Assembly: GCA_946408125.1 (NCBI GenBank)
Contig: CAMJQW010000011.1
Span: forward strand, 1 to 64,000
Length of the DNA stretch: 64,000 nucleotides
Origin: an uncultured Fibrobacter sp.
GTDB taxonomy: Bacteria; Fibrobacterota; Fibrobacteria; Fibrobacterales; Fibrobacteraceae
Direction of reading: 5' to 3'
The notes beneath the pieces are model-generated. The model had not been told where the DNA came from. It searched no databases and saw only the letters and a list, made by a program, of their open reading frames with translations. This document shows, piece after piece, positions 20,618-50,480 of the stretch. Position 1 is the first letter of the stretch. Every line of letters begins with the position of its first letter. Position numbers and translations under genes: made by a program.

Positions 20618-22702
20618 ATGAAAAACAAATTAATTCTCGCCTCCTCCCTGTTGGCCCTCGCTGTAGGCAGCGCCTGGTCCAATTCGTTCTTCTACTTCAA
20701 CCAGGTCGGCTACGATGCCGGCAAGCCCATCAGCATCATCGTCAAGAGCGATAGCGAGCTCGAAGGCGCCGAATTCAAGCTGATGTCTAGCGGCAATGCC
20801 GTCCAGACGGGTAAGCTCTCGAAGGGTACCAATCCGGACAACTGGGTAAACAACGGCAAGTTCTATGTCGCGACTCTCGAAAGGGGCGTTGCCGCAGGTT
20901 CCTACACGCTGCAGATTACCGAGAACGGACAGCCGGTCAATTCGGGTGAATTCAAGGTGGCGGAAAATGCGCTTGCGACGGCGACGCTCGGCGCGGTGCT
21001 CGACTACTTCTACGACGACCGCGCGGTGAACTCGACCATCGTGGGGTGGGATTCGAAGCTTCCGGTGTACAACGGCGGCGGCAAGTCTCTCGACGTGCAT
21101 GGCGGCTGGTACGATGCGAGCGGTGACGTGAGCAAGTACCTCTCTCACCTTTCCTACGCGAACTACCTGAACCCGCAGCAGATCCCGCTGACGGCATGGG
21201 TGCTTGCCCATACGGCGGAGCACATCCCGACACTGCTCGGCAAGACGACGAGCAAGGCGAAGACAGCCGAAGAGGCTGCTTTCGGTGCGGACTTCTTGGT
21301 GCGCATGCTCGACGAGCAGGGATTCTTCTACATGACCGTGTTTGATGTGTGGGGTAACCCTCTGTCCAGCCGTGAAATCTGCGCGTTCACTGGCGAAGAC
21401 GGAAAGAAGACTACCGATTACCAGACGGCCTTCCGCGAAGGCGGCGGCATGGCGATTGCGGCTCTGGCCCGCGTCTCGATGCTCCGCGTGAATGGCGACT
21501 TTACTTCGGAACAGTATTTGGAAGCAGCCAAGAAGGGCTATGCCCACTTGTCCGAAAAACAGAGCATCGGCGGAAACTGTGCCTACTGCGACGACGGCAA
21601 GGAAAACATCATCGACGACTACACGGCACTCCTTGCCGCCACGGAACTCTATGCGGCGACGGGCGAAGACAAGTATAAGACGGATGCGGACAAGCGCGCC
21701 GCAAGCCTCACGGGACGCCTGAGCACTGATGGCTACTTCTGGAGCGACGACGCCAAGACCCGTCCGTTCTGGCATGCGAGCGATGCCGGCCTTCCGCTCA
21801 TCGCGCTCATCCGGTATGCTGAAGTCGAATTGAGCCGCTGTACCGGAGGATGCAGCAGTACCGTGGATGTGAACGATGCTGTTAAGAAGCATTACAACTG
21901 GCTCTTGTCGATTACGAACAAGGTGGACAATCCGTTCGGCTATGCCCGCCAGACGTTCAAGACCGGGGGCAACATCAAGGACGGCTTCTTCATTCCGCAC
22001 GACAACGAGAGCAACTACTGGTGGCAGGGCGAAGACGCCCGCCTGGCAAGCCTTGCCGCGGCTGCCGTTTATGCTTTCAACGCTTTGGACCTGGACGGCT
22101 CCGAGGGCGTGGACAAGTATGCGACTGACCAGCTCGACTGGATTTTGGGAAAGAACCCGTATGCCACGTGCATGATGTACGGCTTCGGCACGAAGGTTCC
22201 CGAAAAGTATGACGGCCAGTCCGAATTCGATGCGACGCTCAAGGGCGGCATCGCGAACGGCATTACCGGCAAGAATACTGACGGTTCGGGCATCGCCTGG
22301 GACGATGACGGCGTTACTGCGGTGGGATTCCCCTACGATGAACCCTGGCATAACTGGCGCTGGATTGAACAGTGGCTCCCGCATAGCACCTGGTACCTGA
22401 TGGCGCTTGCGACTCGTTACGACGAGAAAAATGTGTCGATTTTGCCGACGACGTCTGTCCCGCACAAGACAGTCGCATCGGCAGGTGTGCTGAATGTGCG
22501 CTTGCAAGGGCGACTCCTTTCGATTGATGCGTCGGGTGCGCAAGCCGATGCCGGCATCTCGGTTGTCGGCATGAACGGTGCGAAGGTCGCATCGGGTGCG
22601 CTCCATGACGGTCGCGCGACGGTAAGCCTGGAATCCGTGAAGAGCGGTATCTACATGGTCAAGGTCGCAGGCCTTGGTGCAAGGAAGATTGTGGTCCGCT
22701 AA
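20618..22702 (+). CDS. Secreted GH9 endoglucanase with sorting domain
   Basis: A 694-residue enzyme. After a signal peptide (LLALAVGSAWS) there is a cellulase N-terminal Ig-like domain (about 22-112, FFYFNQVGYDAGKP) and a GH9 alpha6/alpha6 barrel (about 120-605). Family motifs are VHGGWYDASGD with the catalytic aspartate region, LDWILGKNPYATCMMYGFG, and PWHNWRWIEQWLPHSTW, whose glutamate is the likely proton donor. The C-terminal 70 residues (ISVVGMNGAKVASG...GIYMVKVAGLGARKIVVR) form the type IX-like sorting domain shared with other secreted enzymes here. It cleaves beta-1,4-glucan outside the cell. Regulation is suggested by the paired operators upstream. The protease gene starts 17 bases downstream, so both may be co-transcribed. 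Confidence 0.9.
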   Translation: MKNKLILASSLLALAVGSAWSNSFFYFNQVGYDAGKPISIIVKSDSELEGAEFKLMSSGNAVQTGKLSKGTNPDNWVNNGKFYVATLERGVAAGSYTLQITENGQPVNSGEFKVAENALATATLGAVLDYFYDDRAVNSTIVGWDSKLPVYNGGGKSLDVHGGWYDASGDVSKYLSHLSYANYLNPQQIPLTAWVLAHTAEHIPTLLGKTTSKAKTAEEAAFGADFLVRMLDEQGFFYMTVFDVWGNPLSSREICAFTGEDGKKTTDYQTAFREGGGMAIAALARVSMLRVNGDFTSEQYLEAAKKGYAHLSEKQSIGGNCAYCDDGKENIIDDYTALLAATELYAATGEDKYKTDADKRAASLTGRLSTDGYFWSDDAKTRPFWHASDAGLPLIALIRYAEVELSRCTGGCSSTVDVNDAVKKHYNWLLSITNKVDNPFGYARQTFKTGGNIKDGFFIPHDNESNYWWQGEDARLASLAAAAVYAFNALDLDGSEGVDKYATDQLDWILGKNPYATCMMYGFGTKVPEKYDGQSEFDATLKGGIANGITGKNTDGSGIAWDDDGVTAVGFPYDEPWHNWRWIEQWLPHSTWYLMALATRYDEKNVSILPTTSVPHKTVASAGVLNVRLQGRLLSIDASGAQADAGISVVGMNGAKVASGALHDGRATVSLESVKSGIYMVKVAGLGARKIVVR

Positions 22703-22719: not shown

Positions 22720-24840
22720 ATGGGAAAATCGTGGATGCTTGCGGGCCTTCTGCTGCCCGCGGCATTGTATGCTTCACCTCTGGATCCGGATGCCCGCCGT
22801 GTTTTCATCAACGGCGGCGATACGCTCGTGTTGCAGGATCTGGGCGATGAACATTACAGCGAGACGCGTACGGATGACGGCTTCCTGGTTGTCGGTGATG
22901 GCAAGGGAACGCTCTATTACGCGGGTGAAGACGGCAAGCCCTCGAAATTCAAGGCGAAGGGTGCGCACAAGCGCAGTTCCGCTGAAAGGGCTTTCCTGAA
23001 CGGACTCGACCGCGACAAGGTATTCAAGACACACCGGAAAAAGAATCTCGTTCGGGACGGCATCGCCGAATCCGGAGACGAACCGCGGGAGGCGCGTGCA
23101 CCGTGGGTGCCGACGCTGTCTGCCCCGAGGCCGTCCGTGTTGCCCGCTTCGCATCATTCGTCCGGGGAACTCTATTTCCCGATTGTGCTCGTGGCGGGCG
23201 AAGCGGACAACCGGGAGAATCTGGATTCTGCCGGCATGTATGCGCGACTGAACCAGGAAGGCTATACCGAAGACGATTACCTGGGTTCCGTGAGGGATTA
23301 CTTTATCGACCAGTCTTCCGGAGTGTTCAAGCCGCACTTTGACGTGTTCTTGGTGAGCGAGAGCGAACCCTTCGAGAGCTATATCGGGAAAAAGGAAGCC
23401 CAGCTGATGAAGAGGGCCCTCCTCTCGATGCTCGAGAAGTATCCGGAGTTCGATGCATCGAAATATGATTCGGACAAGGATGGCGAAGTCGATGCATTCG
23501 GCGTGCTCTATGCGGGAGAACGCTACTATTCGAAAAACGATGCGAGCCAGCATCTGGGCGGCTTCAAGACGACCTTGAAAAAATACAGTGCGGTCGTGGA
23601 GGCGAACGACGGGATCATATTCAACACGTGTTTCATTATCGACCAGGGTAAGAGCCATATCTCGCAGTTTCTTCACGAATTCAGCCATACGATGGGGCTC
23701 AAGGACCATTACTGCGTGTGGGCGAGTTGGTGTACGGCAAGCTTTTCCGACAGCTCCTACCAGGCTCCGGGTACGCATGCGTGGGACGTGATGGCGACGG
23801 GCCTGTACAACGGCAATTACAGGAAACCGCCCAACTACAGCGCGTTCGAACGCAACTTCATGGGATGGCTTAATTATACCGATATGGAAGACGATGATCA
23901 AGTGAAAGTCCTGCCGCCGCTGGGGTCTGACAATTTTGCGTTGATGTCGAAAGTGAACGACAACGAATGGTACGTGTTCGAGAACCGCCAGATGGAGAAG
24001 TGGGATTCGGGACTCCCGAACCACGGGATGCTCGTATGGCATATCGATTTCAAGCTGAGCGTATGGAATGCCGATTCCCTGAACGACCATGCGGGCCATC
24101 AGCGCGTGGATATCGTCGAGGCGGGCCCCTATTGGGTGCTTTCGCAAAACGGGGGATACTACACTACCAACGGTAATGGCGCGAGGATGAAGGATGACCC
24201 GTTCCCCGGAAGCCAGAACGTGACGGAGCTTTCGCCGGTGTCCGCGTGGGACGGCTCCGCGGTGCTCGACGGGCTGTTCAATATCGTCGAAAAAGATTAC
24301 AATGTGTGCTTTGCCGTGAAGGAAGGCATCGTGGTGAGGGAATGTGAATTCGTTCCGCCGCCATCGAGCAGCTCGGCTTCCGAGTCTTCGAGCAGCGCGG
24401 AATCGGAATCTTCGAGCAGTTCGGAGCCGGAGTCCAGTTCGGCGCTCGCGCCGTCTAGCAGTTCCGCTCTCGAATTGTCGAGCAGTTCGAAACCGGAGTC
24501 TTCGAACAGTTCGGAACCGCAGTCCTCGAACAGCTCTTTGCCGGAGTCCAGCTCGTCGGAAGAGTCCAGTTCTTCGATGACGATTGCCTTGCGCGGTGCG
24601 TCGGTGGTACCCGCGTTCCGGGTCACGATGGAGGGGAACATGCTCTTCGTGAATTCGCCTGAATCCGGCATGAAGACGCTCCGCGTGTTCGACATGCAGG
24701 GCCATGCGCTCGTATTCACGAAATTCGCGTCCCGTGCGTTCAGGCTGGACCTCGGGGCTATCGTCCGCGGTACCCCGCTGGTCATTCGCCTGGAATCGGA
24801 CCGCGGCATTGTCGGGCATTTCAAGGTTCTGCCGAAATAA
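22720..24840 (+). CDS. Secreted M6-like metalloprotease 1 with Ser-rich linker
   Basis: A 706-residue protein with a signal peptide (LAGLLLPAALYA), a propeptide-like region to about 135, and a peptidase domain with HEFSHTMGLKDHYC (zinc HExxH at H319-H323) and downstream PGTHAWDVMATGLYNG, as in the immune inhibitor A/M6 family. AWYVFENRQ-like strands follow. Residues about 548-620 form a serine-rich linker of SSS-E/P units. The last 65 residues (LRVFDMQGHALVFT...) are the shared C-terminal sorting-type domain. It should degrade proteins outside the cell. GGGGAGTG precedes the ATG. It is a tandem paralogue of the next gene with long identical stretches such as the metal site. Confidence 0.85.
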   Translation: MGKSWMLAGLLLPAALYASPLDPDARRVFINGGDTLVLQDLGDEHYSETRTDDGFLVVGDGKGTLYYAGEDGKPSKFKAKGAHKRSSAERAFLNGLDRDKVFKTHRKKNLVRDGIAESGDEPREARAPWVPTLSAPRPSVLPASHHSSGELYFPIVLVAGEADNRENLDSAGMYARLNQEGYTEDDYLGSVRDYFIDQSSGVFKPHFDVFLVSESEPFESYIGKKEAQLMKRALLSMLEKYPEFDASKYDSDKDGEVDAFGVLYAGERYYSKNDASQHLGGFKTTLKKYSAVVEANDGIIFNTCFIIDQGKSHISQFLHEFSHTMGLKDHYCVWASWCTASFSDSSYQAPGTHAWDVMATGLYNGNYRKPPNYSAFERNFMGWLNYTDMEDDDQVKVLPPLGSDNFALMSKVNDNEWYVFENRQMEKWDSGLPNHGMLVWHIDFKLSVWNADSLNDHAGHQRVDIVEAGPYWVLSQNGGYYTTNGNGARMKDDPFPGSQNVTELSPVSAWDGSAVLDGLFNIVEKDYNVCFAVKEGIVVRECEFVPPPSSSSASESSSSAESESSSSSEPESSSALAPSSSSALELSSSSKPESSNSSEPQSSNSSLPESSSSEESSSSMTIALRGASVVPAFRVTMEGNMLFVNSPESGMKTLRVFDMQGHALVFTKFASRAFRLDLGAIVRGTPLVIRLESDRGIVGHFKVLPK

Positions 24841-24897
24841 ACCGCTTTTTACACGTTTTTTGCGTTGCCCCCGTTTTGTTTTTCGGGTGTTCGGGGG

Positions 24898-24905
24898 TAT
24901 ATTTA
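24898..24905 (+). promoter_or_regulatory. TATATTTA box upstream of second protease gene
   Basis: TATATTTA ends 14 bases before the ATG at 24920, with AGAGG in between, so this gene would have a short leader rather than none. It suggests an own promoter inside the cluster. Confidence 0.4.
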
Positions 24906-24919
24906 GAAAGAGGTTTGTT

Positions 24920-27073
24920 ATGAGATTGGAGTACTGTCCCAAGTCGTTTGCGCTGGCAATTTGCATTGCCGGATTTTTTTCTGTAGGTTCGTTCGCCTAT
25001 CCCGAAAATCCCCTCCCGTATTCCATCGATAACGGGGGCGACTCCCTTACGGTTCGTAAAGGGGGCGACGAGCATTTCAGATTCACGCAGACCGAGGACG
25101 GTATTCTCGTAGTGGCCGGTGAAGACGGGCTGTACTACTATGCCGACGAGAATGGCGCGGCGAGCAAGTTCAAGGCGAAAAATGCGGACAGGCGTTCCGC
25201 CAGCGAAAAGGCCTTCTTGAAAAAAATCGATAGGAACAAGGCCTTTAATGGACACCGTTCAAGGCACGGGTATAACCACCGCCGTCCCGATGGTGAAAAC
25301 CGCAAGCGTGCGGCGTGGGTCCCCACCGCTCCGGCGGAGCCGGCTCCCGAAGATGCTCCGCCCGTACTGCGTCTGCCCGATCCGAAAGCGCATGCGAACG
25401 GGACGAACCGTATTCCGGTGATCCTGGTGGAAAACAACTACGAGAAGAATCTCGATTCCGCCATGGTCGACTCTATCCTGAACCGTGAAAACTACACGGC
25501 CAAGTCGTACAGGGGCTCTGTCAGGGATTACTTCGTCGACCAGTCGCATGGACTTTTCGTGCCGACGTTCGACTTGTACTTCGTGAAGGTGGAAAACCCC
25601 TTCGTGGACTATGTCGACAAGGATTACGTACTGATACAGGAAGCGATAGAGGCCTTGAAAAGCAAGTATGCGTCTTTCGACGCACGCCCCTACGACTCGG
25701 ACAACGATGGCGAGGTCGATGCCTTTGCATTGCTGTTCGCGGGTGACGACGCCGAGAAGACGATCAATGGCTCGACTAAGCACCTGGGCGGATTCCAGTA
25801 CGAACTTCAGTGGAATCCCTGCCGCCGCATCGATGCGGGTAACGGCAAGAAGTTCAACAACTATTTCATCATCAAGCAGGCACGCTACCTGTTCCCGACA
25901 TTCATCCATGAGTTCAGCCACACGATGGGCCTCAAGGACCATTACTGCGTTTGGTCTAGTGCTTGCAACGCGAGCTACACCAATTCGAGCCAGCAGTCTC
26001 CGGGCGTGCATTCCTGGGACGTGATGGCGACGGGCATGTACAACGGGACCAACTGTCCGCCGAATTACAGCGCTTTCGAACGCAATTTCATGGGTTGGCT
26101 CGAATACGATTCCCTGGCAGTGTCTGATTGGACAATCGTGATTCCGCCGCTCTGGAAAGAGAATGTGGCATACAAGGTGGGCATCAGCAAGGACGAATGG
26201 TATGTTCTCGAAAACCGCCAGAAGGCCAACTGGGATGCGCCTTTTGCGAACAGCGGGATGCTCATCTGGCATATCGATTTCAACCAGAGGGTCTGGGACC
26301 GCGATTCGCTGAACGACGTGCCGGACCACCAGCGCATAGACGTGGTGGAAGCGGGCAATGTGCGCGTGCCGAGTTACGGCGGCGGGTTCTTGAGCCAGGG
26401 GGGCGCACAGTACATGAAGGACGACCCGTATCCGGGTTCGCAGAAGATTACCGAATTCGGTCCGTTCGTTTCGTGGTACGGTTCCGGAGTGGATATGCAC
26501 CTCTACTCGATTACCGAGAAGGATAGCAACATCTGCTTTGCAAACAAGTCCGGAGTCACCGTGACGGATTGCAAGTACGAAGTCAGTTCGAGCAGCGCCG
26601 CGGTAAGCTCCAGCTCGCAGGCCGCAATGAGCTCGCAGGCAGCAATGAGTTCGAGTGAGGCTGCTGGGGTGTCAAGTTCTTCGAATAGTGCGTTGTCCAG
26701 TTCGGCGGTGACGAGGTCTTCGAGTTCCTGGCGTCCGAGGTCTTCAAGCTCTGCGGTAGTGATGAGCAGCACCGTAGTGTCCAGCAGCAGTTTCGGATTT
26801 TCTTCTTCGACGGAGAGGATTCTTTCCGGGCGTGCGTTGCAGCATGGCTTGCGCATGGAAGTTTCTGGTCGCCTGTTGACGGTGACCGCCGCGACGGCGG
26901 CATCCCGGACTTTGCGCGTGTTCGATGCGCAGGGAAATATGCTTGCACACGAGATATACCAGGGTAAAAACATCTCGTTCGATCTGGACGCATTTGCGGG
27001 CCGGGGCGTTCTCGTGGTGCAGGTGATTGGTAATGGAATGTTGGAGGGCGCCTTCCGCGTCGCTGTAAGATAA
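24920..27073 (+). CDS. Secreted M6-like metalloprotease 2 with Ser-rich linker
   Basis: A 717-residue paralogue of the preceding protease: signal peptide (FALAICIAGFFSVGSFA), N-terminal region with the same SLTVRKGGDEHFRFTQTEDG strand layout, and an M6-like domain with HEFSHTMGLKDHYCVW (H330-H334) and HSWDVMATGMYNG. A serine/alanine-rich linker covers about 554-630, and the C-terminal domain (LRVFDAQGNMLAHEI...) is the shared sorting type. The start at 24920 gives a proper signal peptide; the frame stays open upstream to 24704 but that part overlaps the previous gene. The differing linkers contrast with the conserved catalytic cores and point to an older duplication. Confidence 0.85.
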   Translation: MRLEYCPKSFALAICIAGFFSVGSFAYPENPLPYSIDNGGDSLTVRKGGDEHFRFTQTEDGILVVAGEDGLYYYADENGAASKFKAKNADRRSASEKAFLKKIDRNKAFNGHRSRHGYNHRRPDGENRKRAAWVPTAPAEPAPEDAPPVLRLPDPKAHANGTNRIPVILVENNYEKNLDSAMVDSILNRENYTAKSYRGSVRDYFVDQSHGLFVPTFDLYFVKVENPFVDYVDKDYVLIQEAIEALKSKYASFDARPYDSDNDGEVDAFALLFAGDDAEKTINGSTKHLGGFQYELQWNPCRRIDAGNGKKFNNYFIIKQARYLFPTFIHEFSHTMGLKDHYCVWSSACNASYTNSSQQSPGVHSWDVMATGMYNGTNCPPNYSAFERNFMGWLEYDSLAVSDWTIVIPPLWKENVAYKVGISKDEWYVLENRQKANWDAPFANSGMLIWHIDFNQRVWDRDSLNDVPDHQRIDVVEAGNVRVPSYGGGFLSQGGAQYMKDDPYPGSQKITEFGPFVSWYGSGVDMHLYSITEKDSNICFANKSGVTVTDCKYEVSSSSAAVSSSSQAAMSSQAAMSSSEAAGVSSSSNSALSSSAVTRSSSSWRPRSSSSAVVMSSTVVSSSSFGFSSSTERILSGRALQHGLRMEVSGRLLTVTAATAASRTLRVFDAQGNMLAHEIYQGKNISFDLDAFAGRGVLVVQVIGNGMLEGAFRVAVR

Positions 27074-27080
27074 AAGCTGT

Positions 27081-28952
27081 ATGAATCATTTGTTCAAAGT
27101 TCAAAAAGTGGCGTTTCTGGCGTTGCCGGTTGCGCTGTGGTGCTGTTCTGGCGAAAATTCGGCCGAGGTGGATGTCGAGGAGGGCTCCGAAAATTCGGAA
27201 GTGACCTCTTCGGAATCTTCCGATCCTTCGACTCCGAAATCTTCGAGTTCGGTTATCGCCAAGGATATGGGACTCCCTCCGGCGGGTTTTTACGAATCGT
27301 TTGTTCTCGAGTCTCCCGTGGCGACACAGGGAGGGGTTCTTCGCTGTACGTTCGACGGTTCCGAACCCACGACTACGACGCCCGATGCCGAATTCCCGCG
27401 GACGATAGCTGCGAATACGGTGGTTCGCTGTGCCGAATTCACGGATGCGGGTGTGGTCGCGAAGCAGACAGAAACTTATTTCGTTGGAGAAAGGAAGGTC
27501 GGCATGCCGGTGGTCGCCTTGAGTGTCGCACCCATGTTCTTCTCGGATTACGTTGCCGCTTCTCCTTGCAAACCCGATCCCTGCAAGAACGCGACTTTCT
27601 GGGATGACGTGGAATTCCCGGTGCACGTGGAATACTTTGCCGACGGGAGTTCTTCGCAGGCCAAGGCGTTCGAGATCGATGCGGGCATTTCCATTATGGG
27701 CGGCTATAGCCGTAACCAGGTGAAAAAATCCGTGTCCGTCGTGATGCGCAAGCAGTATCAGGATGGGCGTCTCAAGTACCCACTCTTTGAGACGCGTCCC
27801 GAAGCCAAGAAGTTCAAGGGATTCATCCTGCGCAATAACGGCAACCGTTTCGTGAGTGACTATTTCGCAGATCCGATGGCCGTGAGCCTGCTGGAAGGGA
27901 CTACTGTCGATTACCAGAGGAGCCGCCAGGTGGTTGTGTATTACAATGGCCAGTATTATGGCATTCACGATATGCGTGAAAAGCTGAACGAACATTTCGT
28001 GGAGACGAATTACAAGATTGATTCCAAGGAAGTCGACTTCGTCAAGCACATCAACCTGGATATCAAGGAAGCCAACGGCTCGTCGGCTTCGTATATCGAA
28101 ATGCTCCAGTATGCTTCGACGGCGGATTTCAGCAATCCTGACGGCGACGCGATTGAAAAAATCGGGAAGATGCTGGACGTGTATAACTATGCCGATTACA
28201 TGGCGGCCGAAATCTACTTCCATAACGGGGACTGGCCGAACAACAACGTGCGTGCCTGGCATACGGCATCGCAGCCCTGGCACTTTATCGCCTACGATAT
28301 CGACCATGGCATCGGTTGGACCTGGAACGTGAAGGGCTTTTCGGAAAAGGTCAGCATGTTTGACTGGATAGAAACCGGTGGTAGCGGGACTTGCAGCAAG
28401 TCGTCCGATCCGCTGTGCTTCCACAATCTTTTCAAGAGCATCATCAAGAGTCCCGTGTTCCAGCGCATTTTCATCAACAGGGCTTCGGTCCTGTATGGTT
28501 TGAACCTGAATGCCGCGAAGGTTGCCGAAAAGACGGATGCAATGTATGCGTCGATGACGGTTCAGGAAATCAGCAGGGACATGATCGCTTTCCCGCGCGA
28601 TGATTATTGGTATTCCAACTATTGCGGGGGCGGATTCGATCCGGATGGCGCCTGCTTTAGCGAATGGGCCGCCGACCGCGATGTGAAAGTCAGGGAAGAA
28701 TTCCGCACCTACTTCGGGCTGGGAGAAGACGTGACTATGAACATCTCGTCACAGGGCGGCGGCTATGTCGCCGTGGAAGGTTTCCGCCTGCCTTCGAGCT
28801 ATTCCGGAGTGTTCTTCGGCGGAATGCCGATGGTGCTCAACGCGGTTCCGACGGGCGGTGGCTCGTTTGTGGCGTGGGAAGATGGTTCCACGGATAATCC
28901 GCGTATAGTCTCGACTGCTGACGGGGCCGAATTCAAGGCCACGTTCAAGTAG
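27081..28952 (+). CDS. CotH-kinase-like lipoprotein
   Basis: A 623-residue protein with a hydrophobic N-terminus ending in ALWCC, a likely lipobox, then an acidic Ser-rich tether (about 28-60). Residues about 68-155 match the chitobiase/hexosaminidase C-terminal-like module (CTFDGSEPTTTTPDAE). About 160-545 fit the CotH atypical kinase fold: SVVMRKQYQ, FILRNNGNRFVSDYF, VVVYYNGQYYGIHDMREKLN, and HFIAYDIDHGIGW with the metal-binding aspartates. The C-terminus (about 555-623) resembles an InlB-like repeat. CotH of Bacillus spores phosphorylates Ser-rich proteins; the substrate here is unknown. It starts 7 bases after protease 2 and abuts the convergent minus-strand gene stop to stop. Confidence 0.8.
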   Translation: MNHLFKVQKVAFLALPVALWCCSGENSAEVDVEEGSENSEVTSSESSDPSTPKSSSSVIAKDMGLPPAGFYESFVLESPVATQGGVLRCTFDGSEPTTTTPDAEFPRTIAANTVVRCAEFTDAGVVAKQTETYFVGERKVGMPVVALSVAPMFFSDYVAASPCKPDPCKNATFWDDVEFPVHVEYFADGSSSQAKAFEIDAGISIMGGYSRNQVKKSVSVVMRKQYQDGRLKYPLFETRPEAKKFKGFILRNNGNRFVSDYFADPMAVSLLEGTTVDYQRSRQVVVYYNGQYYGIHDMREKLNEHFVETNYKIDSKEVDFVKHINLDIKEANGSSASYIEMLQYASTADFSNPDGDAIEKIGKMLDVYNYADYMAAEIYFHNGDWPNNNVRAWHTASQPWHFIAYDIDHGIGWTWNVKGFSEKVSMFDWIETGGSGTCSKSSDPLCFHNLFKSIIKSPVFQRIFINRASVLYGLNLNAAKVAEKTDAMYASMTVQEISRDMIAFPRDDYWYSNYCGGGFDPDGACFSEWAADRDVKVREEFRTYFGLGEDVTMNISSQGGGYVAVEGFRLPSSYSGVFFGGMPMVLNAVPTGGGSFVAWEDGSTDNPRIVSTADGAEFKATFK

Positions 28953-32462: not shown

Positions 32463-33872
32463 TTAGAGAGATACTTTGAATGTCTTGCCGCCGACCTTCA
32501 CGAGGTACATGCCCTTGGCGCCGGTGTACACCTTTTGGAGGATGCCGAGACCGCGCGTGGTGCGGACGACCTGTCCGAGGGAGTTCGTGACGGTGATTGC
32601 CATGCCCTGGGCTCCCGTGACGACGATGTAGTTGTCGGAAGACCTGTAGACGGCAACGTGGAAGAGGCTTGCCTGTTCAGCAGGCAGGGCTTCCGTGGAG
32701 GAAGAGCTGAAGCCGAACGATGCCGAGGAACGTACCACGGTGGAGCTGGAAGAGCGGCCGGGGCGGGAGCTGGAGGAACGTCCCACGTGAGAACTGGAAG
32801 AACCCACGGCAGAGTTGGAGGATTGATTGACGACGGAGCTGGAGGATTCCGGAGTGGATCCGCCTTCGCCCGCGATGACGATGTCGCCTGCGTTCGGGAC
32901 GGCATCGAAGTACACGTAGCCACCGTCAATCTTGGATTCGAGCTTGGCGCCCGCCTGCGTCACGTTGGCAGTGGAGCCGCTGTACTTGACGCGGATGGAA
33001 AGCGGGTAGTCGTAGTTGGAAATGTTGTCCTTGATGTTGTGCGTGAGCTTGAAGGTCATGGAACCGGCGGCACCGCCGTCCTGCGCTTCGATCTTCGAGG
33101 CATTACGTTCCTTGATGTACATCGCGACATAGCCCATCGGAGCGACCCAGATGTCCTTGTCGTTCTGCTGGGCCCACTTGAGAGCGCCTTCGATTGCATT
33201 GGCGTCTGTCGGGGAGTAATCGGCCCAGCCGTTTGCACCGGTGGTGAAACCATGAGTTAAGAACATTACCCAGCCGCCTTTGTTGACGGCTTGTTGCATG
33301 GCGCCAGTAAAGGCGTTCGTGTTGTTGTATTGTCCAGTGGATCCGGTCATATAGGCAGGAACTTTGAACCAGTCGCCAGGACCATCCTTGCTCATCACTT
33401 CCTGTCCATTACCACAAATACGACCTGCGATATAGTTCTGTTTAAGAGCGTTTACGTCAGGAACATTGCAGTTAGGATAGGCAACGGTAATGACGCCGTA
33501 CTGCTGCTTAATTTTGTCATTAATAGCCTTTTTTGAGGAAGCTTCTTCGCCGCTCATATTCTGGCCGTGGCTATTGCTGTGGCTTGCGATTTCGTGACCG
33601 GCATCGGCCAATTTTTGAACATCGCTCCAGCCAATCATTCCTTGTGAAGGTTGGTTCGCCCAGTTAACGACAATGTTAAAGGTGGCGTTGTAGCCATAAG
33701 TTTTGAACATGGGGAGGCACTTATCAACGTTGTTTTGAGGGCCATCGTCGAAAGTGAATGATGTGGCGCCCTTGCGGAAGCCTGCCCAGGTGCCGATTTC
33801 GGCTGTTTGAGCGAACGCGGACGTTGCCGCGAACAATCCTGCCGCGGAGGCGGCAAAGAGAATTTTTTTCAT
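32463..33872 (-). CDS. Secreted polysaccharide deacetylase (CE4-like) with sorting domain
   Basis: A 469-residue protein. After a signal peptide (FAASAAGLFAATSAFA) comes a NodB-type domain: SFTFDDGP with the catalytic and metal-binding Asp42/Asp43, ASHSNSHG with metal His98/His102, and LTHGF with the late histidine. A beta domain (about 245-350), a serine/arginine-rich linker (about 350-405) and the shared C-terminal sorting-type domain (ITVTNSLGQVVRTT...GMYLVKVGGKTFKVSL) follow. It probably deacetylates xylan or chitin-like polymers. The start at 33872 is chosen over 33887 because GGAGTG lies 8 bases before it. An ACGC-N7-GCGT palindrome sits about 100 bases upstream. Confidence 0.87.
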   Translation of the reverse strand: MKKILFAASAAGLFAATSAFAQTAEIGTWAGFRKGATSFTFDDGPQNNVDKCLPMFKTYGYNATFNIVVNWANQPSQGMIGWSDVQKLADAGHEIASHSNSHGQNMSGEEASSKKAINDKIKQQYGVITVAYPNCNVPDVNALKQNYIAGRICGNGQEVMSKDGPGDWFKVPAYMTGSTGQYNNTNAFTGAMQQAVNKGGWVMFLTHGFTTGANGWADYSPTDANAIEGALKWAQQNDKDIWVAPMGYVAMYIKERNASKIEAQDGGAAGSMTFKLTHNIKDNISNYDYPLSIRVKYSGSTANVTQAGAKLESKIDGGYVYFDAVPNAGDIVIAGEGGSTPESSSSVVNQSSNSAVGSSSSHVGRSSSSRPGRSSSSTVVRSSASFGFSSSSTEALPAEQASLFHVAVYRSSDNYIVVTGAQGMAITVTNSLGQVVRTTRGLGILQKVYTGAKGMYLVKVGGKTFKVSL

Positions 33873-33970
33873 AAGAATGCACTCCATAATACTTGTTATA
33901 TATCACTAAATTAAGTTTTTAAGGGTAGGAATGCAAATGGGGGCTTGCGTTTTCGTTGTATAGGTTTGCA

Positions 33971-43340: not shown

Positions 43341-46300
43341 ATGAAAAAGGGTTTCCTTGCCCTCGCCATTTTAAGCGGGGCAACCGCCTTGGTTCTGTCC
43401 GCCTGTGCGGACGATGTGATAGACGTCACAAACCAGGAAAAATACGCCATCGTCGATGAGCTGGATTCTGGTGCTTGTACCGAAGAGATGGAAGGTGCCA
43501 TGCAGCTCGTGAAGAGCGAGGGCCTGCTTTACGCCTGTTCCGACGGAGAATGGTTCGTGGTGAACCCCGACGAGGCGGTGGACTACCGGTGCAAGTCCGA
43601 GCCGCTGAAGGACTCTACCGGCTACCGCATTTTCTGTGACGGCGAAGAAATCGGCGTCATCCAGGGTGGCAAGGACGGCAAGGACGCCTCCAAGTCCGAC
43701 AACGGTTCCGACGGCAAGAGCGCCTACGAAATCGCGAAGGATAACGGCTACACGGGCTCCGAAGAAGACTGGAAGAAGCTCCAGAACGGCGCCGACGGCA
43801 AGAGCGCCTACGAAATCGCGAAGGAAAATGGTTACTCGGGCTCCGAAGAAGACTGGGAGAAGCTCCAGAACGGTTCCGACGGCAAGAACGGCAAAACCCT
43901 TTATGAGATTGCGAAGGAAAACGGCTTCACGGGCACCGAAGAGGAATTCCTCAAGAGCCTCGACGGCAAGGATGCCAAGACGGTCGACGGCGACAGCGTC
44001 TCGGGCGACATTGAAGGCGACATCACGCAGCCTGTCACGGACAGCCTCAAGTGCAAGATCGACACGACCAGCGTCGACACCGAGAAGTCCGAAATCAAGG
44101 TGAAGGTCACCTGCGGCAACGGCTCGAGCGAACTCACGCTGCCCATCCTCGTCCCGAACAAGAACCTTAGCACGCACTACAAGAAGCACGTGGTGGTGAG
44201 GATTCCGGTGGGCGGAAAGCTGGAAGAAGACGCTGATGATGATAATAATCCTGACTGGCTTTTGCATACGTTCAACCAGTTGTGGTCTGAATTGCAAATC
44301 GGCCAGTTCGCCGAGCTTACCGTGAGGGAAGTCGACGAAAAGTTCGACCAGACCGGCAAGCGCTATATCGCAGATCTCGCCGCCTCTAGCGAAAAGCTCA
44401 TGGTCTCCGTGGATGAAATGACCGCGAACACCCTGAACTACCATGTGGTGCGCCTCGAGGGCGATATCGACGTGACGAACCTGATGAACTCCTATGCGCA
44501 GCTCCGCGTGAGCCTGGACTTTACCCGTGTTCCGCGGAACAACCCGTTCTCCTCTACGAACACGCAGGTGGCTTTCAACGCCTTCGTCGACTTTGACGAA
44601 TCCGACACCGTCGTAATCGACTTCTTGACCGACTACAAGGCTGCTCGCGTCAAGGAACTCCTCAAGAGCAAGGATTTTGTGGCCGCGGGTAAGCAAGCAA
44701 ATGCCGACCTCGTGAAGGCGCTGCACATCTCTGACGACGCCTCGAAATACCCGGCGTTCGAGCATTACCTGCCCACCGAAGTTGGCAACAACGAACAGTT
44801 CGCGAGCACGCTTTGGCTTGCCGCCCTGCTTAGCAGCGACACGCAGAACTTCAATACCGTGTATGCCGATTACCGTGCATTGTTCGCGAAGGATGGCAAC
44901 TTCAATACCGCCCTCAAGGAAACGTTTAACGGCAAGGAACGTTCGATGTTCCTAGTGGACTTTGAGGTGATGCTCTTGAATGCTTACAGGGAAGGCTGTG
45001 ATAAGAGTGAAGAATGTTCAATCTATGATTCTCCGAAATTTAAGGCCGTGCAGGCGGGCCTCAGGGATGCATACGAGCTTCCTGAAGCATCCAAGGATAC
45101 GTTTGTTGAACCGAAAGTCGGCTATTTCAAGTACATCGTGTATGATTCTGTGAGAAAAAATTGGTACCCGGTGACGCGTCAGGATTTGCTGAACTGGAAT
45201 GCGGAAACTCTTCTGAACATTATCGCCGGCATTGACGAGTGCAATGAGAACCATCTTAGAGCGACAGCGAAACTCACTTTCGAAGGCGTCGATTATGTGA
45301 TGGAGTGCGATGGCGAAAGAGACTATTTCGATTGGACTTTTAGCGCGGCGTACAAGGCTTGTGCAGGGAAAGATGATGGAACCTATATATTGTTGAATAA
45401 GGGAGATGAAGACGAATACTACCGTTGCTTCGAAGTGCAAGGACAGGATGGTAAAACGGTAATGACGGCTACGTCCGTTTCTGCGATGGATTATTATGCC
45501 GGAAAATCCTGCAATCTGGATGCGGAAGATGCCCTCTATACGCTGCCGTCGAGCTCCAACAGCAATGGCGGATCTAGCAACTCCCAATTCTTCCACTGCT
45601 ATAAGGCTTCGCATACGGTGACGATTGAAAGTTCTCCTTCTACCGTTGACGATTCGGAGTACGAAATATTGGATCCTTCGAACATCTATGATTTCAATGT
45701 TATTGTCGCTTTGCAGAAGGGCACATGTACGTCTGAAAATGTGAACAAAAATTCGATGGTGTCCGTATTCGATAGGCCGGGCCACAGCGTCTGGGCTGAA
45801 TGCGATGCCAACTTGTGGACTGATCCTGTAACGTATAGGTGGAAGCGTCTTGATGCTCTCAATGCCGCAGCGACTGCAGCCGAGGGCGCCTGTGACGAAG
45901 AGAAAATGGGACAACACGGAGTGTACTCGGTCGACGTGGCTGAATGGGATATTTCCACCCTTACGCAACACATGAATGTCAAGTGTGATTGTGAAAAAGA
46001 AGATGAATATACTCAGTATTGTGACTGGATGGCCGCGGATGCCCTCGATGTGAAAATTGGTGAGGCCTGTGACTTTGCCTCTCACGAAGATCCCGAATTT
46101 GCCGAGATGGATGATGACATCTATGTATGTGATGTAATATTTAGCGGCTCTTCGACAGCCGAATGGAAAGAATCGTGGACATCGAAATATTGCGAATACA
46201 AATACGAAGAACTGAAGCCCCTTGAAGGAACGACTTCTGAGCTATACAAGTGCAATTATAAGGGAATAACTTACGTGAGCTCCTCTCAATATGGTGAATG

Positions 46301-46664
46301 GCGTGATTTCGATAGCTACTGCACACACTTTGTTGGAAGGTGCAATGAAAATATGACAAGTAGCATGCAAAGTGTCTGTATGTTCATGGAAGGCTTTGTG
46401 GGCGAGACGCCTTACAAGTGCAATCGAACAGAGGGAAAATGGGAAGAAATTACAGTCGTCGAGGATTATTGCGAAAATGCAAATCCCTGGGAATTGAATA
46501 ATGGCAACTGTGGGCCGATCAATTCTGGATTACATTGCCTTTACGCCAATAACACGCATTACGCATGCTGTGAAACCGCGGCGGCAAATGGTGAAACATC
46601 TGCGAAATATGGCTGGGTCCCTGTTGAAGGCGCGAATGGCACCTGCCCGGCATCTGAAGATTAA
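43341..46664 (+). CDS. Giant cysteine-rich lipoprotein 1 with SAYEIA repeats
   Basis: A 1,107-residue protein. A lipoprotein signal ends at LSGATALVLSAC (Cys near 22), followed by VIDVTNQE. Residues about 95-210 contain collagen-like Gly-Lys-Asp spacers and three 26-31-residue repeats of the GKSAYEIAKxNGYxGSEEDW type. About 225-560 is a large conserved domain (CKIDT..., PNKNLSTHYKKHVVVRIPVG, VVRLEGDIDVTN, FLTDYKAARVKELL). The C-terminal half (about 600-1107) is rich in paired cysteines and Tyr/Trp, in modules ending in W-x-x-C patterns. Predicted surface-exposed, disulfide-stabilised, probably binding. The start at 43341 has AGGAGA upstream; the frame to 43305 is rejected. Confidence 0.75.
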   Translation: MKKGFLALAILSGATALVLSACADDVIDVTNQEKYAIVDELDSGACTEEMEGAMQLVKSEGLLYACSDGEWFVVNPDEAVDYRCKSEPLKDSTGYRIFCDGEEIGVIQGGKDGKDASKSDNGSDGKSAYEIAKDNGYTGSEEDWKKLQNGADGKSAYEIAKENGYSGSEEDWEKLQNGSDGKNGKTLYEIAKENGFTGTEEEFLKSLDGKDAKTVDGDSVSGDIEGDITQPVTDSLKCKIDTTSVDTEKSEIKVKVTCGNGSSELTLPILVPNKNLSTHYKKHVVVRIPVGGKLEEDADDDNNPDWLLHTFNQLWSELQIGQFAELTVREVDEKFDQTGKRYIADLAASSEKLMVSVDEMTANTLNYHVVRLEGDIDVTNLMNSYAQLRVSLDFTRVPRNNPFSSTNTQVAFNAFVDFDESDTVVIDFLTDYKAARVKELLKSKDFVAAGKQANADLVKALHISDDASKYPAFEHYLPTEVGNNEQFASTLWLAALLSSDTQNFNTVYADYRALFAKDGNFNTALKETFNGKERSMFLVDFEVMLLNAYREGCDKSEECSIYDSPKFKAVQAGLRDAYELPEASKDTFVEPKVGYFKYIVYDSVRKNWYPVTRQDLLNWNAETLLNIIAGIDECNENHLRATAKLTFEGVDYVMECDGERDYFDWTFSAAYKACAGKDDGTYILLNKGDEDEYYRCFEVQGQDGKTVMTATSVSAMDYYAGKSCNLDAEDALYTLPSSSNSNGGSSNSQFFHCYKASHTVTIESSPSTVDDSEYEILDPSNIYDFNVIVALQKGTCTSENVNKNSMVSVFDRPGHSVWAECDANLWTDPVTYRWKRLDALNAAATAAEGACDEEKMGQHGVYSVDVAEWDISTLTQHMNVKCDCEKEDEYTQYCDWMAADALDVKIGEACDFASHEDPEFAEMDDDIYVCDVIFSGSSTAEWKESWTSKYCEYKYEELKPLEGTTSELYKCNYKGITYVSSSQYGEWRDFDSYCTHFVGRCNENMTSSMQSVCMFMEGFVGETPYKCNRTEGKWEEITVVEDYCENANPWELNNGNCGPINSGLHCLYANNTHYACCETAAANGETSAKYGWVPVEGANGTCPASED

Positions 46665-46700
46665 ACCCGAAACAAGTTTTATAATAAAAAGGAGCAATCC

Positions 46701-49700
46701 ATGAAAAGAACAACCCTAGCCCTTGCAGCCCTCGGTGGGGCACTTGTGACGGGCCTGACTGCTTGCGGTGATGATGTCATCAACGTAACCAACGAAGACG
46801 TGTATTCCATTGTCGACTCGCTCGACAGCACGGACTGTAACAAGGACAACGAAGGGGAGATGGCCCTCGTGAAGACCACGGGCAAGCTCTATACCTGTAA
46901 GGATGGCGAATGGACCGCGGTGAACGCGGCCGAGGCCATCCAGCTGCGTTGCAAGTCCGAACCGCTTAAGGATTCCACGGGCTACCGCATTTTCTGCGAC
47001 GACGAAGAAATCGGTGTCGTGTACAACGGCAAGGACGGAAGCAAGGGCTCGAGCGGCAAGTCCGCTTACGAGCTCGCCAAGGAAGCCGGTTTTGAGGGCT
47101 CCGTCGAGGAATGGCTCAAGACCCTTCAGGGCAAGGACGGCAAGTCCGCCTACGAAGAAGCTAAGGCGAAGGGTTTCGAGGGCTCCGAAGAGGACTGGCT
47201 CAAGATCCTCAAGGGCGAAGACGGTAAGGACGGCAAGTCCGCCTACGAACTCGCGAAGGATGCCGGTTTCAAGGGTACCGAAGAGGAATGGCTCAAGATC
47301 CTCAAGGGCAAGGACGGCAAGGACGTGAACGTCGACAGCCTCGCGAAGGCGATTGCCGGCGACGTGACCGGTGTCTTGGTCGATAGCCTCAAGTGCAAGA
47401 TCGACACGAATTGGACGGACGAGAAGAAGGGTGAAATTAACGTGCAGGTGACCTGCGGCGACGATGTCAGCGTCATCACGCTTCCGAAGCTCATCCCGAA
47501 CAAGAACCTCACGAACCATTACAAGAAGCATGTGGTGGTGCGCTTCCCGGTGAGCAGTCAAGTTACCGATGGTGAGAATATCTACGAAGAAATGTGGTCG
47601 AACGTGCAGGGCAACAATTTTGCCGAACTCGTCGTGATGGAAGTAGATTCTAGCTTCGACCAGACCGGCAAGGCTTTTGTCGCCGAAATGATTGCAGCGA
47701 ATGGCAAACCGTTCGTGACCGTCGAAGACGTGAACGCGAATACCGTGAATTACAAAGTCGTGCGTCTGGAAGGCGATATCGACGTGACGAACCTGATCAG
47801 CTCCCTTGCACAGCTCCGTGTGAGCCTCGATCTGAAGGCCAATATGTTTAGCGGAAATTCGCAGGTCGCTTTCAATGCATTTGTCGATCTCGATGAAGAA
47901 GGCGATATCGTAATCGACTTCTTGACCGACTACAAGGCGGCCCGCGTTAAGGAACTCCTGAAGGAAATGAAGTTTGCTGCGGCAAGTGCCCAGGCGAACG
48001 AGGAACTCGTGAAAGCCTTCTACATCAGTGACGATGCTGAAAACTTCCAGGCTTTCGAACACTACCTGCCTTCCGAAATCAACCTCAATGAACAGTTTGC
48101 AAGTGTTGTATGGCCGGTGGCTCTGCTCGACCAGTCCGGTTCGCAGAACTTCAATACGGTCTATGCCGACTTCCGCACTCTCTTCGCGAAGGAAGGTTCT
48201 TTCAAGAAGACTGTCGAAGTGACATACAACGACGAGCTTCGCTCGATGTTCCTCGTGGATGTCGTGGCGATGCTCATGAAAAAGAATTTTGCCGATTACT
48301 GTAAGGGTCGTGGTTTTAGCGGCGATTGTCGGATAAGAGACACGATCGATGCCATGTACAATGTGGCAAAATACAAGTTCGTCCAAGCTGCGTTCAAGGA
48401 AGCCTATAAGCTTCCGGATGTCAAGAAGGATGCTGCGGTTGCTGTCAGTGGCGGTTTCTTTGATTACTTCGTGTATTCTGCAGATGCCAAACTCTGGTGG
48501 CCGATGAAACTTGACATATTCGAAAAGTTGACGAGAAACAACAATTATCTTGGCGATGGTCAATTTGACGGCAATGCGTTTGATCAGGACAAGTTTACGT
48601 CGCTCTTGAACGATAATGGCAAGTGTGATAAGGAAAATGCGGGTGAGCAAGTCTCTTTCCTTTTTGAGGGGAAAATAGTTCTTATGAAGTGCTATTATTC
48701 GGAACGTGAAGCTGGGTATTGGTACCAGGAAGAATACCTGAACGACGCTCTCTGTGAAGGCAAGAAGGAAAATGATTATGGCGTTATGGTAGACCCCTGG
48801 AACTATTCTAGATATTTCCGTTGCGACAAGAACCCGAAGGAAGGTGGAACGGGCTTGATTGCTAAGGATGTTTACTATTCGGAATACGCCATCGGCAAGC
48901 CCTGTAACTCGAAATCCGAAGACAAACTCTATGAAGCCGGGCTTGAAGAGAATTACTTCATGTGCGCCGATACGAGCGGCGAACATGACGGTACGGGGTA
49001 TGGGTACGTCGAGTTGTATCCGTCTGAAGATGGCGATTTCAATGTTATCGTTGATATGCAGGCCGGTGATTGTGCCGAAGCACAGCAGGGCAATGTCGTG
49101 AAGATCAACAAGGACCCGAAGCACAAGACCAAGGCTGTCTGTGACGGTGGAACATGGAAACATCTTGGAATCAATGATGGCAACGCCGTTGAAGAAGAGC
49201 TCGGTGTCTGTAACGAAACGGTGATGAAGCTGAACAAGGTCTACCATGTCGATATAGAGGAAATTTATCTTTCCACGACCACTGGTCATGACTATGTCAA
49301 GTGCGATTGTGACTTTGTCGCTGGTGAAACTCAAGGAACGGGATCCTTTGAAGATTGTCAGTGGGCTTATGCTACCAACAGGGATATCAAATTGGATTTG
49401 GCCTGTAATGCGGGCAATCAGGACGCGAATGCCACAGCGGATGGGGAAGCGCTCTTCTGCAGTGAAACCGAATATGGTCATGATTGGGCGGATTTGGATG
49501 TAGAATCTAACTGCCCGGTAATCGCCGCTCCGGATGGTGGTAAGCCTTGGGTGGATGGCGAACCTTGCGAATATCCCTGTAATTATGCCGGCAATACCTA
49601 CTATTACAGCCAGAAGGATAAAAAATGGATTACGCTCGATGCTGGCAAGAGCTGCGTCAGCGTGGCTGAATATTGTGCTGCGAATAAACAGGATCTCACA

Positions 49701-50480
49701 AAAGAAGTATGTATTTCTAGAGGGAGCACCGGAACGGATGATTGCAATACGGAAACCGCCACCGTATGCCTTGTCAAGGATGCAATCCACAAGGAAACTC
49801 TGATGGAAGAAATCGAATATCCTTATAATAGTTCTACTTCTACGGCATTCCGAACAGACGAGGAACTTTGCGAAGCTGCGGCGAATGGTTCGAGTGATGC
49901 TTCCTATCAGAGTGAAAACATGGGTCTTTTGGAAAATGATGGCTACGCCATATTCCTAGACGGATATGCTATGGAAGGAGTCGTGTTGCCGGAGGTCTTC
50001 AAGGTTGTGCCTACGCGTGCGGTGCAGAGTTTCAATTGCACGAAGGTTACCGACATCCAAGCCATTTGCTCGGTGTTGCAAAGTGATTTCATAAACTATA
50101 GTGATGGTGAAACGTCCTGTGAGCACCCGTGCGTGTATGGAGGGGAAACATATTATTACAACTTCCAACACAAAAATAACGACGGTACATATGGCAAGTG
50201 GATGACTCTTGCCGAAATGGGGTTGACGGAGTGCCCGAGCATGGGAGATTTCTGCGACGAACATAATACCCTGAATATGGAGTGCTCGGCCATGCAAAGC
50301 TGTAGCGAATGCACGGAAGAATGCATTGAAGAGGACGAGGACGGAGCATGTATTGAATATGGTCCTTGTACGGAATGTATAGACGATAATGATTACTATA
50401 GCTGGACTTGCATTGATTATCCCTTCTCTCAAATAAGTAGTCCGTACTGCATGGATGGCACTTGGACGACCCAAAACTAA
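46701..50480 (+). CDS. Giant cysteine-rich lipoprotein 2 (tandem paralogue)
   Basis: A 1,259-residue paralogue of the preceding gene: lipobox in LVTGLTAC, then DVINVTNEDVYSIVDSLDS as in copy 1 (DVIDVTNQEKYAIVDELDS). Three SAYEIA-type repeats with Glu-Glu-Trp ends cover about 110-215. The same large domain follows (PNKNLTNHYKKHVVVRFPV, VVRLEGDIDVTNLISSLAQL, FLTDYKAARVKELLKEM). The C-terminal cysteine-rich half is longer, with modules such as EPCEYPCNYAGNTYYYSQKD and CEHPCVYGGETYYYNFQH, and divergent from copy 1. AAGGAG lies 6 bases before ATG. The conserved N-terminal and central parts against a divergent C-terminus suggest changing ligand specificity on a fixed scaffold. Confidence 0.75.
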   Translation: MKRTTLALAALGGALVTGLTACGDDVINVTNEDVYSIVDSLDSTDCNKDNEGEMALVKTTGKLYTCKDGEWTAVNAAEAIQLRCKSEPLKDSTGYRIFCDDEEIGVVYNGKDGSKGSSGKSAYELAKEAGFEGSVEEWLKTLQGKDGKSAYEEAKAKGFEGSEEDWLKILKGEDGKDGKSAYELAKDAGFKGTEEEWLKILKGKDGKDVNVDSLAKAIAGDVTGVLVDSLKCKIDTNWTDEKKGEINVQVTCGDDVSVITLPKLIPNKNLTNHYKKHVVVRFPVSSQVTDGENIYEEMWSNVQGNNFAELVVMEVDSSFDQTGKAFVAEMIAANGKPFVTVEDVNANTVNYKVVRLEGDIDVTNLISSLAQLRVSLDLKANMFSGNSQVAFNAFVDLDEEGDIVIDFLTDYKAARVKELLKEMKFAAASAQANEELVKAFYISDDAENFQAFEHYLPSEINLNEQFASVVWPVALLDQSGSQNFNTVYADFRTLFAKEGSFKKTVEVTYNDELRSMFLVDVVAMLMKKNFADYCKGRGFSGDCRIRDTIDAMYNVAKYKFVQAAFKEAYKLPDVKKDAAVAVSGGFFDYFVYSADAKLWWPMKLDIFEKLTRNNNYLGDGQFDGNAFDQDKFTSLLNDNGKCDKENAGEQVSFLFEGKIVLMKCYYSEREAGYWYQEEYLNDALCEGKKENDYGVMVDPWNYSRYFRCDKNPKEGGTGLIAKDVYYSEYAIGKPCNSKSEDKLYEAGLEENYFMCADTSGEHDGTGYGYVELYPSEDGDFNVIVDMQAGDCAEAQQGNVVKINKDPKHKTKAVCDGGTWKHLGINDGNAVEEELGVCNETVMKLNKVYHVDIEEIYLSTTTGHDYVKCDCDFVAGETQGTGSFEDCQWAYATNRDIKLDLACNAGNQDANATADGEALFCSETEYGHDWADLDVESNCPVIAAPDGGKPWVDGEPCEYPCNYAGNTYYYSQKDKKWITLDAGKSCVSVAEYCAANKQDLTKEVCISRGSTGTDDCNTETATVCLVKDAIHKETLMEEIEYPYNSSTSTAFRTDEELCEAAANGSSDASYQSENMGLLENDGYAIFLDGYAMEGVVLPEVFKVVPTRAVQSFNCTKVTDIQAICSVLQSDFINYSDGETSCEHPCVYGGETYYYNFQHKNNDGTYGKWMTLAEMGLTECPSMGDFCDEHNTLNMECSAMQSCSECTEECIEEDEDGACIEYGPCTECIDDNDYYSWTCIDYPFSQISSPYCMDGTWTTQN

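Follow-up and report, generated by a model that had tools for sequence, protein, structure and literature searches.

A putative CotH-family lipoprotein kinase encoded next to two M6-type proteases with Ser-rich linkers in an uncultured Fibrobacter

Does a kinase-like protein encoded directly behind two proteases with serine-rich linkers phosphorylate those linkers? The question is raised by a locus of an uncultured Fibrobacter sp. (contig CAMJQW010000011.1, positions 1 to 64,000; this whole 64,000-nucleotide stretch of DNA is hereafter the window), where four genes lie in a row on the + strand, encoding a glycoside hydrolase of family 9 (GH9), two M6-type proteases (a and b) and a CotH-family protein (Table 1). 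A preliminary description of the locus reported two Ser-linker proteases followed by CotH 7 bases on, which was confirmed by the open reading frame positions on the + strand, with the protease b stop at 27073 and the CotH ATG at 27081. It further proposed that CotH is a kinase phosphorylating the Ser linkers; the kinase part is supported by the conserved active-site residues and fold, whereas nothing specifically supports the linkers as substrates. With moderate confidence, we favour a cluster for exported proteins in which the M6 linkers serve as spacers and CotH is a competent-looking kinase with broad exported substrates, not dedicated to the M6 proteases.

The protein belongs to the CotH family, and its active site is intact. 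Against the Pfam CotH model PF08757 it scores 100.3 bits, well over the cut-off of 23.8 (expectation value, E, 2e-28), and every one of its closest relatives in the named collection comes from a Fibrobacter or Fibrobacteraceae record. A single-sequence search of solved structures gave a chance match only; a Fibrobacter CotH profile matched CotH of Bacillus cereus (5JD9/5JDA) with E 5e-14. Alignment paired K215, E300, N382, D384, D406 and D408 with B. cereus CotH residues, and all six are invariant across 44 Fibrobacter CotH proteins, down to 41% identity. A CotH protein with lost active-site residues was therefore rejected; loss of the ATP/Mg-binding residues had been named in the preliminary description as one finding that would speak against its proposal. 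By position and spacing, D384 corresponds to D228 of B. subtilis CotH and D406 to D251, which we take to be the second residue tested in that enzyme; the two aspartates are 22 residues apart here and 23 in both Bacillus proteins. Substitution of D228 abolishes the activity of B. subtilis CotH, an autophosphorylating enzyme whose targets are Ser-rich, disordered regions (PMC7821199). An AlphaFold2 model of the window protein (predicted local distance difference test score, pLDDT, 86) aligned with the solved B. cereus structure 5jd9 over 334 residues (Z 25.7, root-mean-square deviation 2.8), with the next fold at Z 10.6. Judged from the alignment and the model, the protein appears to be a catalytically competent kinase. 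Its signal peptide is followed, in order, by a disordered arm rich in Ser and Glu, a domain resembling CHB_HEX_C, the CotH domain itself and, at the C-terminus, a beta domain. The lipid anchor suggested earlier is likely, the lipobox being an atypical LWCCSG in the window protein and FWACSG in two orthologues, and would place CotH at the outer face of the inner membrane.

Both proteases matched the NCBIfam model TIGR03296 (M6 metalloprotease domain) below its curated cut-off of 110.8 bits (a, 98.8 bits, E 5e-28; b, 104.2 bits, E 1e-29), and both carry a HEFSH zinc motif of the HEXXH type, at residues 319-323 and 330-334, respectively. In each, a linker of about 95 residues is located directly ahead of a tail resembling the type A sorting domain of the type IX secretion system (T9SS). 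Given this position, the linkers can be explained as spacers without invoking phosphorylation. In enzymes of Saccharophagus and Cellvibrio, polyserine linkers are known to separate domains (PMC2386152), and T9SS export and surface attachment have been proposed for F. succinogenes cellulases (PMC6851124). Among homologous M6 tails, 11/28 matched TIGR04183 at E<=0.01 (best 3e-7), and the genome holds 45 type A tails by this model, including those of the GH9 protein, whose C-terminus is a weak T9SS-type tail (E 1e-4, just below the cut-off), and of a Ser-linker protein at 32463-33887. The latter, encoded near CotH on the other (-) strand, is polysaccharide deacetylase-like (TFDDGP motif), with a Ser-linker followed by a T9SS-like tail. 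A general association of T9SS tails with Ser-linkers was rejected, since two of ten tailed genes in the sampled DNA of this genome carried a Ser-linker.

Defined as at least 11 Ser within 20 residues, Ser-linkers are a genus-wide trait, present in 2-4% of sampled genes: 7/309 in random DNA of a relative (G005) and 13/325 in the genome carrying the window (genus Fibrobacter, 2.49 Mb, 81% complete), so that roughly 80 are expected in this genome. At these rates, two adjoining Ser-linker genes together with CotH are uncommon. M6 homologues were present in 37/37 Fibrobacter genomes searched. When the 1.5-kb flanks of 29 homologues outside the window were inspected, a CotH gene was seen only in G012 (the contig ends just behind the M6 pair of G015), and the linkers of homologues without a CotH neighbour are as Ser-rich as those in the window. 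The GH9-M6 locus also occurs without CotH at L079, L080 and L088, with an M16 protease or the 162-amino-acid gene beside it, suggesting that CotH is most likely a later arrival at this locus; in the window, the 162-amino-acid gene follows CotH on the opposite strand. Across the phylum, no link between the presence of Ser-linkers and that of CotH was apparent: in small samples, no Ser-linkers were found in four CotH-free genomes, nor in G040 (no CotH) or G042, which has seven CotH genes.

The best-surviving alternative, which takes Bacillus CotH with CotB and CotG as its model, is that CotH serves specifically the Ser-linker protein whose gene lies just upstream; it would poly-phosphorylate the M6 linkers, either in the periplasm or at the cell surface, altering linker charge, stability or surface attachment. 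The short gap on the same strand and the intact active site are consistent with such a role. So is the M6b-CotH order, kept in three species, with gaps of 7 bases in the window and of 46 and 47 in G012 (L051) and F. succinogenes RUG11357 (L101), the three M6-paired CotH proteins forming one supported clade. The linkers themselves argue against it, as they are equally Ser-rich where no CotH lies beside them. Moreover, a Ser/Lys/Arg-rich repeat substrate of the CotB/CotG type was not found beside CotH, the M6 linkers containing 3% and 6% Lys/Arg (K/R), and only 9% and 21% of the serines in the two linkers have K/R at +-2/3, unlike in CotB/CotG. The claim that the M6 linkers are the substrate thus lacks specific support, given the same linkers without a CotH neighbour, the lack of a Lys/Arg-rich make-up and a spacer role that suffices to explain them.

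A survey of CotH neighbours at 107 loci (a few being the same place entered twice) bears on the same alternative. Same-strand neighbours within 150 bases of CotH carried a Ser-linker in 15/77 cases, compared with 21/905 for genes three or more away. This raw enrichment is not strong evidence, because all 15 neighbours fall into just two families, one of M6 proteases and the other of lipoproteins with a PKD domain. Counted as families, 2/17 CotH-adjacent families have a Ser-linker, giving p = 0.10 against the genome rate of all genes and p = 0.52 against an assumed, roughly estimated, rate of ~10% of secreted proteins. In this genome, 2/11 CotH genes have a Ser-linker neighbour versus 20/634 (Fisher p = 0.05), and neighbours of other Ser-linker genes carried a Ser-linker in 0/20 cases. 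Many CotH genes instead adjoin a UbiE-type methyltransferase, MetH, MatE or GH10, so a tie of all CotH genes to Ser-linkers was rejected. Most CotH genes lack a Ser-linker neighbour, and CotH/Ser-linker adjacency alone is weak evidence. The family that includes the UbiE/MenG-type methyltransferases lies just 3' of CotH at 31 loci, in the largest CotH clade (e.g. L049, L062 and L119). In several relatives, between four and eight CotH genes, apparently of a kind nearer Bacillus CotH, are arrayed in tandem (G019:C2:57425-69801, G006:C111:50348-60812, G033:C1:198930-206111 and G008:C10:308491-315894).

The PKD-domain lipoprotein, unrelated to M6, offers the stronger case for a dedicated pair. Its linker is rich in Ser and Lys, 67% of the linker serines of the representative in this genome having K/R at +-2/3, and its gene ends 2-19 bases 5' of CotH in several loci. 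Coordinate lists placed a long PKD homologue directly upstream of CotH in 10/10 checked genomes, this one included (a further copy, on G015:C172, extends to the contig end), and the CotH partners carry Ser-rich arms of their own. This pair is more CotB/CotH-like than the window pair, because the window M6 linkers are acidic or near neutral and K/R-poor, and it is the better place for testing linker phosphorylation. Together with the M6-CotH pair in three species, it keeps the substrate idea alive. Dedicated phosphorylation of the M6 linkers by CotH is accordingly a possibility, if a rather unlikely one. The general proposal, that lipid-anchored Fibrobacter CotH kinases phosphorylate exported Ser-rich linkers outside the inner membrane via dedicated M6-CotH and PKD-CotH pairs, we regard as quite unlikely.

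Another alternative holds that the CotH fold serves a different extracellular chemistry, such as glycan, lipid or other group transfer, and that the adjacency to M6 is functionally meaningless. Much weaker alignments of the model were also obtained with lipid kinases and with Fam20 (hydra Fam20 5xoo, Z 8.4); the protein has a CHB_HEX_C-like domain; an ATP source outside the membrane is not known; and the 11 CotH copies in this genome, with the arrays elsewhere, suggest varied roles. These weaker matches share the general kinase fold and do not point to a function, whereas CotH, a protein kinase, leads the fold matches by a wide margin and its active-site residues are conserved in the window protein; we regard this alternative as unlikely. 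That the protein is a non-catalytic structural or binding relative, with all features being chance neighbours, is very improbable: a literature search found no activity data for any Fibrobacter CotH, but the invariance of all six active-site residues would be unexpected in a dead enzyme.

The reading we favour can be outlined as follows. The products of the cluster would all be exported: a GH9 enzyme, two surface proteases of M6 type and CotH as a lipoprotein. The protease linkers probably act as flexible spacers between the protease domain and the type IX-like sorting tail. CotH, a competent-looking kinase, would sit at the outer face of the inner membrane, and its most likely targets are Ser/Thr residues within disordered segments of exported proteins, including the Ser-rich arm that it carries itself; dedication to the M6 linkers seems less likely. 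The GH9-M6 locus is probably the older part, which the CotH gene joined in a single lineage and where it has been retained since. Several points weigh against this interpretation. The activity, location and broad substrate range of CotH are what we infer, and both window M6 tails score below the TIGR04183 cut-off. Any CotH working outside the cytoplasm would also need a phosphate donor there, and no ATP supply is known beyond the inner membrane. A SprA_N search for SprA, the T9SS core protein, found no match, which is uninformative since control genomes were also unmatched. A literature search found no phosphorylation data or phosphoproteome for these proteins.

Table 1 Features of the GH9-M6-CotH cluster and of the PKD lipoprotein-CotH pair.
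Feature	Position	Strand	Support or composition
GH9 glycoside hydrolase, first gene of the cluster	20618..22702	+	Pfam PF00759 E 1e-26
M6-type metalloprotease a (possible alternative start 22735)	22720..24840	+	TIGR03296
Ser-rich linker, protease a	24331..24612	+	46% Ser, 14% D/E, 3% K/R; acidic
C-terminal beta tail, T9SS type A sorting domain-like, protease a	24613..24837	+	TIGR04183 E 0.028
M6-type metalloprotease b	24920..27073	+	TIGR03296
Ser-rich linker, protease b	26555..26842	+	41% Ser, 6% K/R, 4% D/E; near neutral
T9SS type A-like sorting tail, protease b	26843..27070	+	TIGR04183 E 0.0035
CotH-family kinase-like protein, probable lipoprotein	27081..28952	+	PF08757
Ser/Glu-rich disordered arm of CotH, behind the signal peptide	27171..27275	+	31% Ser; residues 1-56 pLDDT <50
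CHB_HEX_C_1-like immunoglobulin (Ig) domain of CotH	27276..27455	+	PF13290 E 2e-4, 21.8 bits against cut-off 22
CotH active-site residues K215, E300, N382, D384, D406, D408 (first to last)	27723..28304	+	Alignment with B. cereus CotH
C-terminal all-beta domain of CotH	28728..28949	+	Strands at residues 550-622 of the model
PKD lipoprotein with Ser/Lys-rich linker and CotH with Ser-rich arm	L048:8865-14232 (G000:C24)		

Elsewhere in the window, two long adjoining putative lipoproteins of 1107 and 1244 amino acids, with the similar starts ACADDVIDVTN and ACGDDVINVTN, are encoded at 43341-50480, in the part of lowest GC content. A search of an anti-phage defence library gave no match.

Hardly any kinases are known that act on bacterial proteins after their export from the cytoplasm, and a literature search found no description of what the numerous CotH proteins that gut bacteria have outside the cell do. 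The tight pairing of the PKD lipoprotein with CotH provides a concrete substrate candidate. If CotH acts as proposed, an extracytoplasmic protein-phosphorylation system would exist in a Gram-negative fibre degrader, and phosphorylation of surface-enzyme linkers, if true, would revise the view of how Fibrobacter organises its cell-surface enzymes.

Compared with the Bacillus spore-coat CotH (PF08757; 5JD9, 5JDA; substrates CotB and CotG), the window protein shares the kinase fold and the active-site residues, as well as a gene position beside that of a Ser-rich protein. Unlike the Bacillus enzyme, it carries a signal peptide with lipobox, a domain resembling CHB_HEX_C and a beta domain at the C-terminus, and is probably extracytoplasmic rather than located in the mother cell; its neighbours are M6 proteases with Lys/Arg-poor linkers, unlike CotB and CotG. 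The Fam20C kinases of the secretory pathway, to which CotH is distantly related (PMC7821199), act on exported proteins, as is proposed here for CotH, but are eukaryotic Golgi enzymes, and the likeness to them seen here is one of fold. Ser-rich inter-domain spacers similar to those described here occur in exported polysaccharide-degrading enzymes of Saccharophagus, Cellvibrio and Teredinibacter, although the window linkers, unlike these, precede a T9SS-like tail of proteases. Finally, the proteases share with T9SS type A cargo the order of signal peptide, catalytic domain, spacer and C-terminal beta tail, while their tails score below the curated cut-off.

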